Source: Streptomyces liliiviolaceus
GTDB taxonomy: Bacteria; Actinomycetota; Actinomycetes; Streptomycetales; Streptomycetaceae
Direction of reading: 5' to 3'
DNA length: 64,000 nt
NCBI RefSeq assembly: GCF_018070025.1
Contig: NZ_JAGPYQ010000002.1
Coordinates: 1,736,001-1,800,000, forward strand
A model generated the notes under the pieces. That model ran no database searches, was not told where the DNA came from, and saw nothing but the letters and a program-made list of their open reading frames with translations. A program made the translations under genes and the position numbers. Positions 55,174 to 64,000 of the stretch are shown here, piece by piece (within the stretch, counting starts at the first letter, position 1; each line of letters starts with the position of its first letter).

Positions 55174-55620
55174 TCAGGAGGCCTCCACGGCCGCCTTGAT
55201 GCGCTGTCCGAAAGCAGGGGCGTCCTTGCGGGCCGCACCGCCCGCGACAGGCAGCAGCAATTTGCCGATGCCGTGGCCCTCCAGCACGTTGAAGATCCGG
55301 ACGCGGGTTCCGCCGCTCGGCGTCGGCTCCAGGTCGTACCCTCCGTCGGCCGCGGTGATCAGGTTCTTGGACCGCTCGCTCCAGCGGATCCTGCTCGGGG
55401 AGACGAGTTCGGTGATCTCGAACTCGCGGCCCGTCGTCATGCCGGCGTCCTTCACCGTGCTGCGGAAGACCGTGCCGACGGCCGTCGGCCCGTCCGGAGT
55501 CTTCTCGATCTTCTGTACACGGGGGCTGAACTCGGGGTCGTTGGTGCCGTCGGCGAGGAAGGCGAAGACCTCGTCGATCGGGCGGTCGATGTCGACAGTG
55601 GCCTCGAACTGGGTACCCAT
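55174..55620 (-). CDS. SRPBCC (START-like) family protein
   Basis: 148 aa from ATG 55620, with GGGAGAG upstream. Begins TQFEATVDIDRPIDEVFAFL, the polyketide-cyclase/Aha1-like opening, and ends with a long C-terminal helix. Helix-grip fold that binds small hydrophobic ligands; no specific substrate visible. Same strand as DUF6204, 70 bp apart. Confidence 0.85.
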   Translation of the reverse strand: MGTQFEATVDIDRPIDEVFAFLADGTNDPEFSPRVQKIEKTPDGPTAVGTVFRSTVKDAGMTTGREFEITELVSPSRIRWSERSKNLITAADGGYDLEPTPSGGTRVRIFNVLEGHGIGKLLLPVAGGAARKDAPAFGQRIKAAVEAS

Positions 55621-55777
55621 GGGCTCTCCCGGGGATGGCGGTGGCCGGCGGTGGACGGTCGGGCGCTGCCGAGGCCGCGGGTCCACACGTCAGAACAGGC
55701 GGCTCAACCATACGCCGCCGCGCCGGGACCCGCAGGCCCAACGGGACAGGCCGCAGACGCGACAGAACAGGCATGTC

Positions 55778-55849
55778 CTTGTCATTTCTCTGGACAGCCG
55801 CCGTACGCCGTGCTGTGATGCCGCAAGCCTACTTTCCAACGTTGTACAG
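55778..55849 (+). promoter_or_regulatory. Promoter-operator module, copy 2 (GH127 gene)
   Basis: CTTGTCAT (55778-55785), TGGACA (-35, 55791-55796), 17-bp spacer, TGTGAT (-10, 55814-55819), then CTTTCCAACGTTGTACAG (55832-55849), identical over 18 bp to the site before the GH2-AbfB gene. The box CGTGCTGT(C/G)ATGCC around the -10 is also shared. Lies 90 bp upstream of the ATG. Confidence 0.72.
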
Positions 55850-55939
55850 CCTCTGTTCCGCCGCTCACGGCCGACGTCCGAACGTCCTCCACGGCAGCCG
55901 TCGGTGGCACCTTCCTCTCCCCCAACAGGAAGCAGTGAC

Positions 55940-58360
55940 ATGCCGATCAACAGACGCCACCTGCTGCGCACCGGCACCCTCGCGCTCGGTGCGGGCACAC
56001 CCCTGATGAACACCGGACTCGCCGCCGCCACATCCCGGGTGGCCGCAGCCGAAGCCGGGGCCGGGGCCGCCGACAGCGTGGCCGCCGACGCCTTCCTCCG
56101 GCTGAAACCGGGCAGCATCGTCCCGCGCGGCTGGCTCGCCGGTCAGCTGCGGCTCCAGCTCGACGGACTCTGCGGCCGTCTCACCGAGAAGTCCCACTTC
56201 CTGGACTTCGCCACGAGCGGCTGGGTCCACCCCGAGAACAGCGCCTGGGAGGAACTGCCGTACTGGCTGCGCGGTTACGTGCCGCTGGCCGTCGCCACCC
56301 GCGACACCGCCGCGCTGGACCGGGCGCGGCGCTGGATCGACGCGATTCTCACGACCCAGCAGAGCGACGGCTTCTTCGGGCCGCGCGCACTGCGGACCGC
56401 ACTCAACGGCGGACCCGACTTCTGGCCCTTCCTCCCGCTGCTGCAAGCACTGCGCACCTTCGAGGAGTTCACCGGCGACACCCGTGTCGTGCCCTTCCTC
56501 ACCCGGTTCCTGCGGTACATGAACACGCAGGGCAAGGGCGCCTTCGACACCAGTTGGGTGTCGCAGCGGTGGGGCGACTGCATGGGCATCGCCCTGTGGC
56601 TGTACCGCCGGACGCCCGAGCCCTTCCTCCTCGACCTGGTCGACAAGATGCACACCTGGGGTGCCGACTGGACCGGCGCGCTGCCGAACGCCCACAACGT
56701 CAACATCGCGCAGGGCTTCCGCGAGCCGGCCCAGTACGCGCAGCGCTCCGGCTCGGCGGAGCACACCCGCGCCAGCTATCGCACGTACACGGAACTCCTC
56801 GCGGCGCACGGCCAGTTCGCCGGTGGGGGCTTCGCGGGCGACGAGAACATCCGGCCCGGTTTCGGTGATCCGCGGCAGGGCTTCGAGACCTGCGGTGTCG
56901 TCGAGTTCATGGCCAGCCACGAACTGCTCACGCGGGTCACCGGCGATCCGCTCTGGGCCGACCGGTGCGAGGAGCTGGCCTTCAACATGCTGCCCGCGTC
57001 CCTGGACCCGGACGGCAAGGGCGTGCACTACGTGACCAGCGCCAACAGCGTCGACCTGGACAACTCCCGCAAGACGCAGGGGCAGTTCCAGAACGGCTTC
57101 GCCATGCAGTCCTTCCAGCCCGGCATCGACCAGTACCGCTGCTGCCCGCACAACTACGGCATGGGCTGGCCCTACTTCGCCGAGGAACTCTGGCTCGGCA
57201 CACCGGACGGCGGCCTCGCCGCGGCCATGTACGCGGCCTGCCAGGTCACGACGGAGGTGGCCGGGGGCACCTCCGTCACCGTCACCGAGACCACCGACTA
57301 CCCGTTCGGCGAGACGGTCGACTTCGTCGTCTCCACACCGCGTTCCGTCAGCTTCCCGCTGCTGCTGCGGATACCCGGCTGGTGCGCGGCGCCCCGGCTC
57401 CAGATCAACGGGCAGAGCGTGCCGGCACGGAGCGGACCGGCCTTCGTACGCGTGGACCGCACCTGGGCCGACGGCGACCGGGTCTCCCTGCGTCTGCCGC
57501 AGAGCACGACCGTGCACACCTGGCCCGGAAACCGCGACTCGGTCAGCGTGAGCCACGGTCCGCTCACCTACGCGCTGCGCATCGGCGAGCGATACGTCCG
57601 CTACGGCGGCGACACGACCTTCCCCGAGTACGAGGTCCATGCCACGACCCCCTGGAACTACGGGCTCGTGCCCGGCGGGAACCTGGTGGTGCGCCGTGCC
57701 TCGGGGCCGGTCGCCGCCAACCCGTTCACCCAGTCGGCCACCCCCATCTCCATCACCGCCGACGCACGCCGTGTCCCCGAGTGGATCGCCGACGACGAGC
57801 ACGTGGTGGCTCCGCTGCAGCAGAGCCCGGCCCGGTCCGCGGGTGCGGTGGAGCAGGTCACGCTGATCCCCATGGGCGCGGCCCGGCTCCGTATCGCGTC
57901 CTTTCCGACCGCCTCCCCCGACGGCACGCCCTGGCAGCCCGAGGCCCCGTACCGGCGGATCCGTAACAAGCACAGCGGGAAGGTGCTCGCCGTGGACGGG
58001 ATGTCCACCGAGAACAGCGCGCACGTGGTGCAGTTCGACAACTCGGGGACCGGGGACCATGCCTGGCAGGTCGTGGGCCGCGGCGACGGGTGGTCCCTGA
58101 TCCGCAACGGGCACAGCGGGAAGGTCCTGGGCGTCGACCTCATGTCGACGCAGAACAGCGCGCACGTCGTCCAGTTCGAGGACAACGGCACCGACGACCA
58201 CCTGTGGCAGTTCGTCGACGCCGGCAGCGGCTGGTTCCTGATCCGCAACAAGCACAGCGGGAAGGTCCTGGGCGTCGACGGCATGTCCACCCAGAACAGC
58301 GCCCATGTCGTCCAATTCGAGGACAACGGCACCGACGACCACCTGTGGCAGTTCGTCTGA
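55940..58360 (+). CDS. Secreted GH127 beta-L-arabinofuranosidase with ricin-type lectin domain
   Basis: 806 aa; AGGAAG before ATG. Tat-like signal NRRHLLRTGTLALG. The GH127 (alpha/alpha)6 barrel has the Zn/Cys site: Glu316 and Cys318 (GFETCG), Cys401-Cys402 (CCPHNYGMGW), Cys402 corresponding to the catalytic Cys region of HypBA1. Residues about 674-806 are three ricin-B/trefoil repeats (IRNKHSGKVLxVDxMSTxNS). It probably releases beta-L-arabinofuranose from plant glycoproteins or arabinan-like chains and is lectin-anchored to substrate. Followed by a strong terminator. Confidence 0.88.
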   Translation: MPINRRHLLRTGTLALGAGTPLMNTGLAAATSRVAAAEAGAGAADSVAADAFLRLKPGSIVPRGWLAGQLRLQLDGLCGRLTEKSHFLDFATSGWVHPENSAWEELPYWLRGYVPLAVATRDTAALDRARRWIDAILTTQQSDGFFGPRALRTALNGGPDFWPFLPLLQALRTFEEFTGDTRVVPFLTRFLRYMNTQGKGAFDTSWVSQRWGDCMGIALWLYRRTPEPFLLDLVDKMHTWGADWTGALPNAHNVNIAQGFREPAQYAQRSGSAEHTRASYRTYTELLAAHGQFAGGGFAGDENIRPGFGDPRQGFETCGVVEFMASHELLTRVTGDPLWADRCEELAFNMLPASLDPDGKGVHYVTSANSVDLDNSRKTQGQFQNGFAMQSFQPGIDQYRCCPHNYGMGWPYFAEELWLGTPDGGLAAAMYAACQVTTEVAGGTSVTVTETTDYPFGETVDFVVSTPRSVSFPLLLRIPGWCAAPRLQINGQSVPARSGPAFVRVDRTWADGDRVSLRLPQSTTVHTWPGNRDSVSVSHGPLTYALRIGERYVRYGGDTTFPEYEVHATTPWNYGLVPGGNLVVRRASGPVAANPFTQSATPISITADARRVPEWIADDEHVVAPLQQSPARSAGAVEQVTLIPMGAARLRIASFPTASPDGTPWQPEAPYRRIRNKHSGKVLAVDGMSTENSAHVVQFDNSGTGDHAWQVVGRGDGWSLIRNGHSGKVLGVDLMSTQNSAHVVQFEDNGTDDHLWQFVDAGSGWFLIRNKHSGKVLGVDGMSTQNSAHVVQFEDNGTDDHLWQFV

Positions 58361-60423: not shown

Positions 60424-60903
60424 CTACTGAACCGCGCCTCCGGGATCCGGTACGCCCGCGGACGGCATCCGAAGCGTGGGCGGGTCGCCCCGAGGCGCCT
60501 CCAGCGCGGCGCGCAGGGAGTCTACGGGGCCGCGGCCGATACGCAACGCGAGTTCCCCTTCGAGCGCCGCCAGGACGGAGACGGCTTCGAGGTGCGCCGC
60601 CGCGCCCTCGCCGGTGCGGCGGATCAGCCGCCGGCGGGCGGAGGACGGATCGGGGACCTGTTCGAGCAGTCCCATACCGATGAGGCTGTGCACGGCCTGA
60701 TGCGCGGTCTGCCGGGTGACACCCATGCGCCGGGCCAGCTCGGAGACCGTGGTGCCCTTCTCGTCCAGCGCGGCGAACAGCTGCGCCTGGGTCGGAGAGA
60801 TGGGCGCCATTCCCGCCTGCTCCAACGTCGCCACCAGCGCCTCGTCGAACCAGCGGCGGGCGTCGAGGAGCAGCTGCGGGAGGGGAGTGCCGACGGACTT
60901 CAT
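60424..60903 (-). CDS. MarR-family transcriptional regulator
   Basis: 159 aa; GAGGAA 3-7 nt before ATG. Winged HTH TTVSELARRMGVTRQTAHQA, wing SSARRRLIRRTGEG. Divergent from queD, with a 33-bp operator in the gap, so it is the expected repressor of the flavonol operon, released by flavonol or a phenolic product (inference). Confidence 0.86.
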   Translation of the reverse strand: MKSVGTPLPQLLLDARRWFDEALVATLEQAGMAPISPTQAQLFAALDEKGTTVSELARRMGVTRQTAHQAVHSLIGMGLLEQVPDPSSARRRLIRRTGEGAAAHLEAVSVLAALEGELALRIGRGPVDSLRAALEAPRGDPPTLRMPSAGVPDPGGAVQ

Positions 60904-60964
60904 GGGTTCCTCAAGAAAGACGCACAGGGGGTCCGAGCTTAGGTCGGGGGATTGTCACGCAGCC

Positions 60965-60997
60965 AATCCCTATGTCAGGCTACCTGACATAGGGATT
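60965..60997. promoter_or_regulatory. MarR operator, 15-bp perfect arms
   Basis: AATCCCTATGTCAGG (60965-60979), spacer CTA, CCTGACATAGGGATT (60983-60997). Centred between the MarR and queD starts, 37 bp from the queD ATG. Length and symmetry suit a MarR dimer or two stacked dimers. Confidence 0.85.
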
Positions 60998-61033
60998 CGA
61001 CCGTGTCCTCCGCGAGCCACCCCGGGAGAGAAC

Positions 61034-61594
61034 ATGACCGCTGAATTCGCCGCCCGACACCGTTCCGTCTCACACATCCCCTCCGATCCGGGCAGGCCGT
61101 ACTTCATCGAGAAGGGGATGGGAGACCGCGCCCATCTGTTCGGTGACCTGTTCACCGTCTACGCGGGCGGTGAACAGACCGAGAACACGTTCAACTTCTT
61201 CACCGCCGAGGGCCCCAGGGGCGGCATCATCCCGGCCCACTCGCACCCGGACACCTACGAGGTCTTCTACATCGCCGACGGCGCGGTGCGCCTGTTCGTC
61301 GAGGACACCGGGGGCGAGCAGTACGAGAAGCTGCTGACCGCCGGCGACTTCGGCTTCGTCCCCAAGAACTGTCCGCACGCCTACCGCATCGAGCGGCACC
61401 ACAGCCGCATCGTGGGAGTGGCGGCCGGACCCGGTGGCACCTTCGAGCGGTTCTTCGAGAATCTGGGCACTCCCACGGAGGAACTCGGCCTGCCGCAGCG
61501 GCCGTTCGTGCCCGAGCCGCAGAAGTTCGGCTCCGTCCCCCAGCAGTACGACGTGCGCTTCCTGCCCGATCACCAGTGGCGTACGCGGGGATGA
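61034..61594 (+). CDS. queD: Quercetin 2,4-dioxygenase, mono-cupin (QueD)
   Basis: 186 aa, matching the small mono-cupin quercetinase of Streptomyces sp. FLA in length and motifs from memory. The metal ligands fall at His69, His71, Glu76 (PAHSHPDTYE) and His115 (KNCPHAY), the same numbers as in that Ni/Co enzyme. It opens the flavonol C ring with O2, releasing CO and a depside. First gene of the operon, controlled by the palindrome at 60965; its stop overlaps the next ATG. Confidence 0.88.
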   Translation: MTAEFAARHRSVSHIPSDPGRPYFIEKGMGDRAHLFGDLFTVYAGGEQTENTFNFFTAEGPRGGIIPAHSHPDTYEVFYIADGAVRLFVEDTGGEQYEKLLTAGDFGFVPKNCPHAYRIERHHSRIVGVAAGPGGTFERFFENLGTPTEELGLPQRPFVPEPQKFGSVPQQYDVRFLPDHQWRTRG

Positions 61595-61746
61595 GCGGCG
61601 TGTCCTACCTCAAGGCGCTCGCGGCCGGTCTGCTCGTCGGCGCTCTCTACGCGACGATGCGCGTCAGGTCGCCCGCGCCGCCGCCGGTCGCGCTGTCCGG
61701 TCTGCTGGGCATGCTGCTCGGCCAGGCCCTCCTGGCGGCACTGTGA
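61591..61746 (+). CDS. XapX (DUF1427) small membrane protein 1
   Basis: 51 aa, ATG overlapping the queD stop. Two hydrophobic segments: SGVSYLKALAAGLLVGALYA, then the family core RSPAPPPVALSGLLGMLLGQ. XapX proteins are tiny membrane proteins of unknown role, often next to hydrolase or amidohydrolase genes. Its TGA overlaps the GTG of the next gene. Confidence 0.82.
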   Translation: MSGVSYLKALAAGLLVGALYATMRVRSPAPPPVALSGLLGMLLGQALLAAL

Positions 61747-62108
61747 ACACCCCGAAGGCCGTACCGAAGGACGCTCCGACGGGCGTGCCGGAGGACGTGC
61801 CGACGTCCGTACCGAAGGGCGCTCCGGAGACTGCGCCGAGGGGCGCTCCAAGCATCGTCCGCGCCGGGCACTTCACCCGACACGCCGCGCTCGCCTTCGT
61901 CGCGGGAGCGCTGATGGGTGCCGTCTACTGGGCGTTGTCCGTGCCCTCCCCCGCGCCTCCGCTGCTCGGTCTGACCGGCCTCGCCGGCATCGTCGCGGGT
62001 GAGCGGATCATCACCGCGGTCCGCGACCGGCGCTCGCGCCGCCGCGCGGAGTCCTCCGCCGCCGACTCGACCCCCACCTCCCAGGAGCCCACTCATGACA
62101 GCGCCTGA
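61743..62108 (+). CDS. XapX (DUF1427) membrane protein 2, with repeat-rich N-terminus
   Basis: 121 aa from GTG 61743. Residues 1-35 are a Pro-rich repeat (VPKDAPTGVPEDVPTSVPKG), then two hydrophobic segments with the same core as the preceding protein (PSPAPPLLGLTGLAGIVAGE), then a basic tail. The tandem pair suggests a heteromeric membrane component; transport of the aromatic substrate is possible but unproven. The end overlaps the next gene by 14 bp. Confidence 0.8.
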   Translation: MNTPKAVPKDAPTGVPEDVPTSVPKGAPETAPRGAPSIVRAGHFTRHAALAFVAGALMGAVYWALSVPSPAPPLLGLTGLAGIVAGERIITAVRDRRSRRRAESSAADSTPTSQEPTHDSA

Positions 62109-63126
62109 CGCTCCGCGACTCATCGACGTGCACGCCCACTTCGTCACCGAGTCCTACATCCGGCAGGCCAGGGCCGCCGGGCACGAACGGCCCGACGGCA
62201 TGCCCGGCTGGCCCACCTGGTCGCCCGCCGCCCACCTGGACCTGATGGACCGCTGCGGCATCGGCACGGCGATGCTGTCGCTCTCCTCCCCCGGCGTGCA
62301 CTTCGGTGACGACGCCGCGGCCCGGCGGCTGGCCCGCGAGGTCAACGAGGAGAGCGCCCGGGTGGTACGCGAGCACCCGGGCCGCTTCGGCCTGTTCGCC
62401 TCGCTGCCGCTGCCCGACGTCGACGGCGCCCTCGACGAGATCGCGTACGCCTTCGACACCCTCGGCGCCGACGGGGTGGTCCTGGAGAGCAACACCCATG
62501 GCGTCTACCTCGGTGACGCGAGACTGGAGCCGGTCTTCGCGGAACTCGCCCGGCGCGACGCGGTGGTCTTCCTCCACCCCACCTCGCCCGTGTGCTGGGA
62601 ACAGTCCGCGCTCGGACGGCCGCGCCCCATGGTGGAGTTCATCTTCGACACCGCGCGGACCGTCACGGATCTGCTGTTCGCGGGCACCCTCGAACGCCAC
62701 CCCGATCTCAAGGTCGTCGTCCCGCACTGCGGCGGCGCCCTGCCCGTGCTCGCCGACCGCGTCAACGGCTTCATGAGGCTGTTCAGCCCCGAGGACCAAG
62801 GCACTCCCGACGTGATCGCGCACCTGCGCCGTCTGCACTACGACCTCGCCGGCACCCCGTTCCCCCGCCAGGTCCCGGCGCTCCTGAACCTGGTCGACCC
62901 CGACCGGCTGCTCTACGGAAGCGACTACTGCTGGACGCCGCCGGCCGCCGCCGAGGCCCATGTCGCCTCGGTCGACGCGGCTCAGGTCCCGGCCACGATG
63001 ACGGGCGCGGTGCCGGGCACGGTGACTGGCGCAGTGCCGGGCGCGGTGCCGGGCGAAAGCGTGACCTGGCGGTCCCTCACCACCGCCAACGCACAGCGTC
63101 TCCTGCCCCGCCTCGCCGCCCGCTGA
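62095..63126 (+). CDS. Amidohydrolase-2 family decarboxylase-like enzyme (ACMSD/gamma-resorcylate type)
   Basis: 343 aa, AGGAG before ATG. Metal-site residues: HAH in IDVHAHF, His in VFLHPTS, His in VVPHCGGALP, Asp in LYGSDYCW. Members decarboxylate aromatic or enol acids (ACMSD, 2,6-dihydroxybenzoate decarboxylase) without an oxidant. In this operon the natural substrate is 2,4,6-trihydroxybenzoate, released from the quercetin depside (inference). A GAVPG repeat near the C-terminus (about 305-320) is low complexity. Confidence 0.8.
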   Translation: MTAPDAPRLIDVHAHFVTESYIRQARAAGHERPDGMPGWPTWSPAAHLDLMDRCGIGTAMLSLSSPGVHFGDDAAARRLAREVNEESARVVREHPGRFGLFASLPLPDVDGALDEIAYAFDTLGADGVVLESNTHGVYLGDARLEPVFAELARRDAVVFLHPTSPVCWEQSALGRPRPMVEFIFDTARTVTDLLFAGTLERHPDLKVVVPHCGGALPVLADRVNGFMRLFSPEDQGTPDVIAHLRRLHYDLAGTPFPRQVPALLNLVDPDRLLYGSDYCWTPPAAAEAHVASVDAAQVPATMTGAVPGTVTGAVPGAVPGESVTWRSLTTANAQRLLPRLAAR

Positions 63127-63234
63127 CGCCCTTTCGCCCAGGCCTCGCTCACCCGAGCCCCGTTCACCGAAGTCCCGCTCGCCCAGGCTCGTTCACCGAA
63201 GCGCCGCTCCCGGCTCCGGATCCCGAAGGAACCC

Positions 63235-64000
63235 ATGTCCCTGCCGCCCGACCTCGCCGCGCTGCTCGCCCCGCCGGACCCGGCCCGGCTGCCCCTGCCG
63301 CCCGCGGCACTGCCCTCTCCCGGCGTACGGCTGCTGCGAGGCGTCCCCTACCTGGTGCCCGACGGCCACCGTCCCCTGGAGTTGGACCTGTGGCTCCCCG
63401 AGAAGCCGACAGGTCCGCTCCCCGTCGTCGTCTTCGTCCATGGCGGCGCCTGGCGCACCGGGCTGCGCGGCGATCCGGGCCCGGCGTTCCGCTCCTGGCG
63501 GCCCGGCCCGTTCGCCCGCCTCGTCCAGGCCGGATTCGCCGTCGCCTGCCCCGGCTACCGGCTCAGCGGCGAAGCCGTGCATCCGGCCCAGGTCGACGAC
63601 CTGTCCGCCGCCTTGGCCTGGCTGCACGTACGGTCCGGTGAACTCGGGCTCGACACCGCCCGGACCGTCCTGTGGGGCGAGTCCGCGGGCGGTCATCTGG
63701 CCGCCCTGCTCGCTCTCACCTCCCGCCGCCGCACCCCGTCCACCCCCTCCGTCCCGCCCGTGACCGGCTGTGTCACCTGGTACGCCCCCACGGATCTCCT
63801 CGCACTCGCCGGGGACCCGGCGGACGGGCACACCTTCGAGGCGCTGCTGGTCGGAGGCGCGCCGGCCGACGTGCCCGACCGGACCCGGGACGCCAGCCCC
63901 GTCCACCACGTCACCGCCGACGCGCCGCCCTTCCTCGTCCTGCACGGCACCGAGGACCACATCGTCCCCGGCGACCAGGGCGTGCGGCTGGCCGCCGCGT
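63235..64000 (+). CDS. Alpha/beta hydrolase (esterase), 3' end outside window
   Basis: ATG 63235 with AAGGA 5 nt upstream; 255 residues visible, open at the right edge. Oxyanion motif HGGAW (VVVFVHGGAWRTG), nucleophile elbow GESAGGH, and an acidic/basic pair near HGTEDHIVPG: the BD-FAE/hormone-sensitive-lipase type. Located 108 bp after the decarboxylase gene, it is the natural candidate for hydrolysis of the depside ester. The full triad needs the missing C-terminus. Confidence 0.8.
   Translation, partial: MSLPPDLAALLAPPDPARLPLPPAALPSPGVRLLRGVPYLVPDGHRPLELDLWLPEKPTGPLPVVVFVHGGAWRTGLRGDPGPAFRSWRPGPFARLVQAGFAVACPGYRLSGEAVHPAQVDDLSAALAWLHVRSGELGLDTARTVLWGESAGGHLAALLALTSRRRTPSTPSVPPVTGCVTWYAPTDLLALAGDPADGHTFEALLVGGAPADVPDRTRDASPVHHVTADAPPFLVLHGTEDHIVPGDQGVRLAAA

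Follow-up and report, generated by a model that had tools for sequence, protein, structure and literature searches.

In fungi, the aerobic breakdown of flavonols runs from rutin through quercetin to a depside, which gives protocatechuate and a phloroglucinol carboxylic acid. In Streptomyces, the quercetinase QueD is a well-studied nickel enzyme. Among the openly licensed matches listed, no account of its genomic surroundings, or of an operon such as the one reported here, was found; the 2007 first report of queD may mention the neighbourhood, and a term search of the main text of one paper on Streptomyces QueD (PMC4416304) gave no hit for operon, gene cluster or esterase. Here, we analyse a stretch of 64,000 nucleotides of Streptomyces liliiviolaceus (contig NZ_JAGPYQ010000002.1, positions 1,736,001-1,800,000; hereafter the window), at whose right end a MarR-family regulator gene diverges from queD, two XapX/DUF1427 genes, an amidohydrolase gene and an esterase gene.

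This Streptomyces gene set very probably breaks quercetin into smaller pieces, and we consider it likely that it forms a MarR-controlled flavonol catabolic operon in which the XapX pair moves the trihydroxybenzoate/phloroglucinol half. The gene identities, the conservation of the neighbours, an operator motif and the association of XapX with enzyme families that release phloroglucinol-type compounds are observed; the later catalytic steps, regulator binding and the role of XapX are what we infer from them.

In the proposed scheme, QueD would open the central ring of quercetin-type flavonols to give carbon monoxide and a depside (the ester of protocatechuate and 2,4,6-trihydroxybenzoate), the esterase would split the depside, and the amidohydrolase would convert 2,4,6-trihydroxybenzoate to phloroglucinol by decarboxylation, while protocatechuate would pass to a separate protocatechuate 3,4-dioxygenase of the genome. 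The MarR regulator would sit on a palindrome at 60966-60996 until a flavonol or one of its breakdown products frees it. The two XapX proteins would be a small membrane complex moving the trihydroxybenzoate or phloroglucinol half, most likely outward, a direction suggested because no conserved phloroglucinol-using gene was recognised. With its conservation and clear operator, such an operon would offer a whole bacterial flavonol pathway to study, including a candidate phloroglucinol-making enzyme.

Quercetinase, esterase and conserved neighbours

The queD gene (61034-61594, forward strand) encodes a protein of 186 residues that is, by homology, a monocupin quercetinase (flavonol 2,4-dioxygenase) predicted to cleave quercetin with release of carbon monoxide. 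It matches the solved Streptomyces quercetinase 5fli over residues 1-184 (E 1.7e-104), as well as 5flh. Residues 69, 71, 76 and 115 are H, H, E and H, the quercetinase ligands that an earlier reading of the window (the sequence-only reading) had placed at exactly these positions, and they are the same in 80 of 80 related loci; according to the primer list of PMC4416304, the exchanges made in Streptomyces QueD include H69, H71 and H115.

The rest of the gene set is likewise present in the order that had been claimed (MarR, QueD, two XapX, amidohydrolase, esterase), and the overlaps described for the first four operon genes measure 4 nt (queD/xapX1), 4 nt (xapX1/xapX2) and 14 nt (xapX2/amidohydrolase). 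Family scans of the operon proteins returned MarR_2, Cupin_2, DUF1427/XapX twice (both above the NCBIfam cut-off), Amidohydro_2 and BD-FAE. After a gap of 108 nt, the esterase gene begins at 63235 on the forward strand, reaches the window end at 64000 and continues to about 64146; in the next contig stretch (L004) it occupies L004:5236-6147, with its stop at the window equivalent of 64146, 146 bases past the window end. Its product of 303 residues is a BD-FAE alpha/beta-hydrolase (E 1.8e-47; 162 bits against profile PF20434, cut-off 26.8), in which the GxSxG nucleophile motif reads GESAG at 148-152, and its predicted role is to split the flavonol depside.

The sequence-only reading had named conservation of the neighbours with queD as a test, and a synteny survey found them conserved. 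The survey took one genome per species, which gave 150 confirmed relatives of queD, and the best 80 of the 150 were kept; neighbours were counted in the 72 of these 80 loci that extend at least 2.6 kb downstream of queD, and the counts hinge on length and identity limits that we set ourselves. One should also keep in mind that the loci are kin and hence not independent observations. Downstream of queD, the esterase was found in 57 of 72 loci, the XapX pair in 25 and the amidohydrolase in 23, so that the esterase is the core partner of queD, and the XapX pair and the amidohydrolase additions to it. The most frequent arrangement is queD with the esterase alone (26/72), followed by queD with the XapX pair, amidohydrolase and esterase (16/72), with the XapX pair and esterase (9/72), and with the amidohydrolase and esterase (6/72). 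The amidohydrolase occurs without the esterase in 1/72, and a fragment of it with the esterase absent in 2/72. The esterase accompanies every XapX pair (25/25) and 22 of the 23 amidohydrolases. The full set that had been proposed as the operon is thus conserved beside queD, with a smaller core than that reading described, since 35 of 72 loci carry QueD and the esterase without the amidohydrolase.

The amidohydrolase is matched beside queD only as fragments in L006 and L057, which suggests loss, and in L059 (10605-12951) QueD and the amidohydrolase are followed by a cobalamin-independent methionine-synthase-like gene in the place of the esterase. In L060, which is counted among the 23 amidohydrolase loci, the match covers only 177 residues and the gene may be decayed.

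A putative conserved operator before queD

The MarR-family regulator gene (60424-60903, reverse strand; MarR_2 E 3.7e-13) is divergent from the operon, as the sequence-only reading had it, and the shared promoter region holds a putative MarR operator, the perfect 14-3-14 palindrome ATCCCTATGTCAGG-CTA-CCTGACATAGGGAT (60966-60996), whose motif is conserved. On the MarR side, a sigma-70-like match (60978-60951, reverse strand) overlaps the palindrome. Of the 80 loci, 58 have a MarR relative in the vicinity of queD, in 49 cases upstream and divergent and in 9 cases downstream.

In 57 of the 80 loci, the 200 bases before queD contain the operator core, TGTCAGG-N3-CCTGACA with at most one mismatch. 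Because the motif was derived from these very loci, this count is descriptive, and the absence of the motif elsewhere serves as the control: the other 1,461,684 bases of the loci gave no match. The core is present in 51 of the 58 MarR loci (42/49 divergent, 9/9 downstream) and in none of the 15 loci with an AraC-type regulator (Fisher p 1.2e-10, a value that is too optimistic, as the AraC state needs only three changes on the tree); it is also present in 6 of the 7 loci where neither a MarR nor an AraC-type gene was seen. The seven MarR loci outside the mismatch limit comprise three with a diverged palindrome (L023, L043, L081) and four with none (L016, L032, L047, L078). Two copies of the operator precede queD in L038, L050, L051, L057, L064 and L083.

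In the organism's own genome of 11.1 Mb, there are one exact operator and three one-mismatch sites, and no match to the reversed control pattern. A wider MarR regulon in this genome was considered and found no support: only one site is exact, and the one-mismatch site that was examined, of the three, lies inside a coding frame. We regard the MarR protein as a local regulator with a putative palindromic operator upstream of queD, which it would bind until released by a flavonol or one of its products.

Flavonol glycosides and the fate of the products

In L008, L013 and L019, the operon adjoins genes that cluster with the GH1, GH78 alpha-rhamnosidase, TetR and MFS genes of L008 (Pfam assignments were made on the L008 copies). 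GH78 genes occur in the flanks (up to 10 kb) of 6 of 80 loci (L008, L013, L019, L020, L022, L024), which is a raw count without a background rate, and GH1 accompanies GH78 in 5 of these 6. Rhamnosidase and beta-glucosidase genes near some copies of queD fit the use of rutin-type flavonol glycosides. The window's own genome encodes both protocatechuate 3,4-dioxygenase subunits above curated cut-offs, and one half of the depside product therefore has an outlet.

For the other half, no phloroglucinol-using gene was recognised by eye in the 40 commonest neighbour clusters, few of which were family-scanned. It is therefore conceivable, and we give it a substantial minority chance, that the operon serves mainly in detoxification or signal quenching of plant flavonols, its products being exported through the XapX pair and left unused; the single exact operator in the genome and the compact queD-esterase form in 26 of 72 loci would suit such a role. 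The rhamnosidase, beta-glucosidase and MFS genes near some copies, together with the protocatechuate dioxygenase, point instead to feeding on at least the sugar and protocatechuate parts.

The tandem XapX proteins

The XapX pair is the most novel part of the operon. The first gene, xapX1 (61591-61746, forward strand), encodes 51 residues (TIGR03510, 55.9 bits against a cut-off of 27.8), and the second, xapX2 (61743-62108, forward strand; GTG start), encodes 121 residues (46.1 bits against the same cut-off). At least 7044 database proteins of the XapX/DUF1427 family score above the threshold, and a search of the PDB with the XapX profile gave no hit at E up to 1.

The distribution of XapX is patchy. 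In a sample of 396 genomes across the phylum, the window's own genome alone exceeds the cut-off, with one further genome having a match below it; XapX is also found in the control genomes of E. coli and Haloferax volcanii; a tblastn search of plasmids gave no match, perhaps owing to the low-complexity filter. Within the genus, 17 of 392 Streptomyces genomes carry XapX, and 15 of these 17 have two matches. In 13 of these 17 genomes the XapX pair stands directly beside queD, a gene present in 58 of the same 392 genomes (Fisher p 7e-9); this survey and that of the 80 loci overlap, some genomes being apparently of the same species. Two copies are present at each of the 29 XapX-bearing queD loci among the 80, counting one decayed copy in L014 and one partial copy in L056.

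Away from queD, the intact XapX pair of G575 is flanked by an S15-type hydrolase gene on one side and a phloretin hydrolase/PhlG-family gene on the other, and the score of the latter does not reach the NCBIfam cut-off for diacetylphloroglucinol (DAPG) hydrolase proper. G640 retains remnants of both kinds of gene, a fragment of XapX next to a PhlG-family stretch that is interrupted by a stop codon. PhlG-type chemistry differs from the QueD route, but its product is of the same phloroglucinol type. PhlG-family genes were found in only 5 of 295 genomes, and two XapX-neighbouring finds are therefore unlikely to be due to chance, though two is a small number; the window's own genome has no PhlG-family match. 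By family assignment, 15 of the 17 XapX loci adjoin enzymes whose families release phloroglucinol-type compounds. No such enzymes were seen by eye near the XapX pair of G562 or near the single interrupted copy of G591, which has an unknown base inside it.

By eye, XapX1 has two predicted helices, and XapX2 has a long N-terminal tail and an Arg-rich C-terminus. The Arg/Lys excess at the ends of XapX2 averages +7.8 (range 3 to 13) over 30 rows, namely the window and 29 loci, and the charge of XapX1 is exactly 0 in 21 of the 30, with a mean of +0.5; start codons were assumed, and because L014 counts one copy twice (XapX1 value +10), 29 pairs are informative. By a cruder count, 93 other XapX proteins, for which pairing is unknown, are mostly near charge balance. 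Under the positive-inside rule, the excess in XapX2 would place both of its ends inside, and XapX1 would be free to insert either way. A further XapX protein (P0161, 101 residues) has a pair of SPAPP/APAPP motifs within its single chain and looks like a fusion of two XapX units.

Paired small multidrug resistance (SMR) proteins have opposite biases in more than 95% of pairs, as stated in a passage of PMC9574504. When that comparison, based on opposite Arg/Lys bias in adjacent genes, is applied here, the XapX pairs turn out to be unequal rather than opposite. A strictly opposite bias of the two XapX proteins was accordingly rejected, as it fails once start codons and the SMR formula are used and XapX1 is balanced. 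An asymmetric heterodimer of XapX1 and XapX2 is suggested by these sequences. That the tandem pair is a minimal two-component carrier or channel for phloroglucinol-type polyphenols, built of two subunits with two helices each, one of fixed and one of free orientation, is a specific proposal that we rate as quite unlikely; if true, it would be the first function for this widespread family, and XapX/DUF1427 in any case gains a concrete functional hypothesis.

We know of no assigned function for XapX, which is one reason to consider that the two proteins lack a transport role and either serve an operon enzyme as membrane anchors or chaperones or are passengers. The loose coupling to the amidohydrolase (absent from 9 of 25 XapX loci, while XapX is absent from 7 of 23 amidohydrolase loci) and the G562 pair, with no recognisable neighbours of the expected kind, fit this explanation, which is a possible but tentative one. 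Passengers, however, would hardly be kept as two copies at each of 29 queD loci, nor would one expect the second association of XapX, with a phloroglucinol-releasing hydrolase family. Judged by titles in the openly licensed literature, only PMC554113 treats the family, and one bacterial genome study names XapX once. In a passage of PMC554113, a census of proteobacterial genomes from 2005, DUF1427 is confined, among the organisms known at the time, to plant-associated Proteobacteria, a distribution that fits a role with plant compounds; the present finds add Actinobacteria.

The amidohydrolase

The amidohydrolase-superfamily gene (62095-63126, forward strand; Amidohydro_2 E 1.1e-29) encodes 343 residues and a predicted 2,4,6-trihydroxybenzoate decarboxylase. 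Its AlphaFold model, built from 20 sequences, has a mean pLDDT of 79.8; by fold, the uncharacterised hydrolase 2f6k comes closest to it, followed by 2dvt, a 2,6-dihydroxybenzoate (gamma-resorcylate) decarboxylase. A profile search of the PDB likewise placed 2f6k first, followed by uracil-5-carboxylate and 5-carboxyvanillate decarboxylases, and no NCBIfam model matched at E 0.001. Residues H13, H15, H161, H211 and D277 form an HxH/H/H/D set of putative metal and acid residues; they are kept, wherever aligned (fragments included), in 27 relatives above 50% identity, except for R in place of H15 in one locus.

The sequence-only reading had taken this enzyme for an ACMSD-type amidohydrolase that could decarboxylate trihydroxybenzoate. 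A decarboxylase-like family and fold are upheld, whereas ACMSD itself is outscored by 2f6k, 2dvt and 4icm in sequence and by 2f6k and 2dvt in fold, and was dropped as the identity of the enzyme. Among the 120 relatives listed, several are entered in the database as 6-methylsalicylate decarboxylase, which is a label and not a test; together with the fold near 2dvt, these names make an aromatic o-hydroxy acid a better guess at the substrate. The hydroxyls of 2,4,6-trihydroxybenzoate flank its carboxylate as they do in 2,6-dihydroxybenzoate, and decarboxylation of the former by this enzyme is therefore plausible.

A less likely reading is that the substrate of the amidohydrolase is a different aromatic acid, or that the enzyme is a further depside hydrolase, with the esterase doing the rest. 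In its favour, the nearest solved structure is an uncharacterised hydrolase, the family is broad, with more distant relatives (about 51-55% identity) in unrelated neighbourhoods, and the 35 of 72 loci with the esterase and no amidohydrolase mark the step as dispensable. Against it, the next relatives in both fold and sequence are decarboxylases that act on carboxylated rings, and a second depside hydrolase would be redundant where 22 of 23 amidohydrolase loci already have the esterase.

Several observations count against a flavonol catabolic operon with the full set of functions proposed here. Those unrelated neighbourhoods are among them, as are the breadth of both the amidohydrolase and the esterase families, the nearest plasmid relative of the amidohydrolase (68% identity), which is without annotation, and the failure to recognise a phloroglucinol-using gene. 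In 12 of 72 loci, neither esterase, amidohydrolase nor XapX stands beside queD. On the QueD tree, parsimony requires 15 changes for XapX, 10 for the amidohydrolase and 11 for the esterase, and because the tree is weak, with only one independent pair on well-supported branches, a test of correlated gain and loss is powerless. The esterase could have its own promoter in the 108-nt gap that precedes it, although a scan confined to a sigma-70-type pattern found none there. No XapX lies beside the other three PhlG-family loci (G495, G514, G671). Finally, the convergent FAD monooxygenase gene 3' of the esterase was considered as a further operon member and found no support, as a high-identity copy stands beside queD only in L005 among the 80 loci.

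Surrounding genes

The FAD monooxygenase gene (L004:6152-7390, window equivalent 64151-65389) is 3-hydroxybenzoate 6-monooxygenase-like, with a score below the cut-off, and its product could act on phloroglucinol. Genes of other kinds follow it: L004:8259-13997 holds genes for a GntP permease, a DRL-type oxidoreductase, an SBD_N/NBD_C kinase and a class II aldolase (Pfam), along with a regulator gene that is presumably of the DeoR type, and the cluster looks like one for acid-sugar utilisation. On the other side, a large protein is encoded within 55196-58360; it is secreted-looking by eye with a TAT-like start, and its C-terminal repeats seem, also by eye, to resemble a ricin-type lectin domain.

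Comparison with known systems

The putative operator before queD, the association of XapX with queD and with PhlG-family genes, and the tandem XapX pair with one charge-biased and one balanced member are new here. The enzyme at the head of the operon has a close described counterpart in QueD of Streptomyces sp. FLA (which we take to be the source of 5fli, 5flh and 5flj), whose four ligand residues are identical to those of the window QueD; the strain name is that given in a passage of PMC11069340. 2dvt and LigW (5-carboxyvanillate decarboxylase, 4icm) have the fold and putative metal residues in common with the window amidohydrolase, although 2dvt is only about 21% identical to it in the structural alignment and the first motif of the window enzyme is HxH.

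For the XapX pair, two comparisons are useful. Like the XapX pair, paired SMR proteins and Fluc channels are very small membrane proteins, homologous to each other, with tandem genes and charge biases that are unequal, whereas XapX has two predicted helices and biases that are not opposite. At the phloretin hydrolase/PhlG loci (enzymes of the type of 5xe5 and 3hwp), the gene lies directly after the XapX pair in G575, and remnants adjoin in G640. As a whole, the fungal flavonol pathway has the same order of steps as predicted for the Streptomyces operon, which differs in that a single bacterial operon unites these steps and includes a MarR-type operator as well as a XapX pair.

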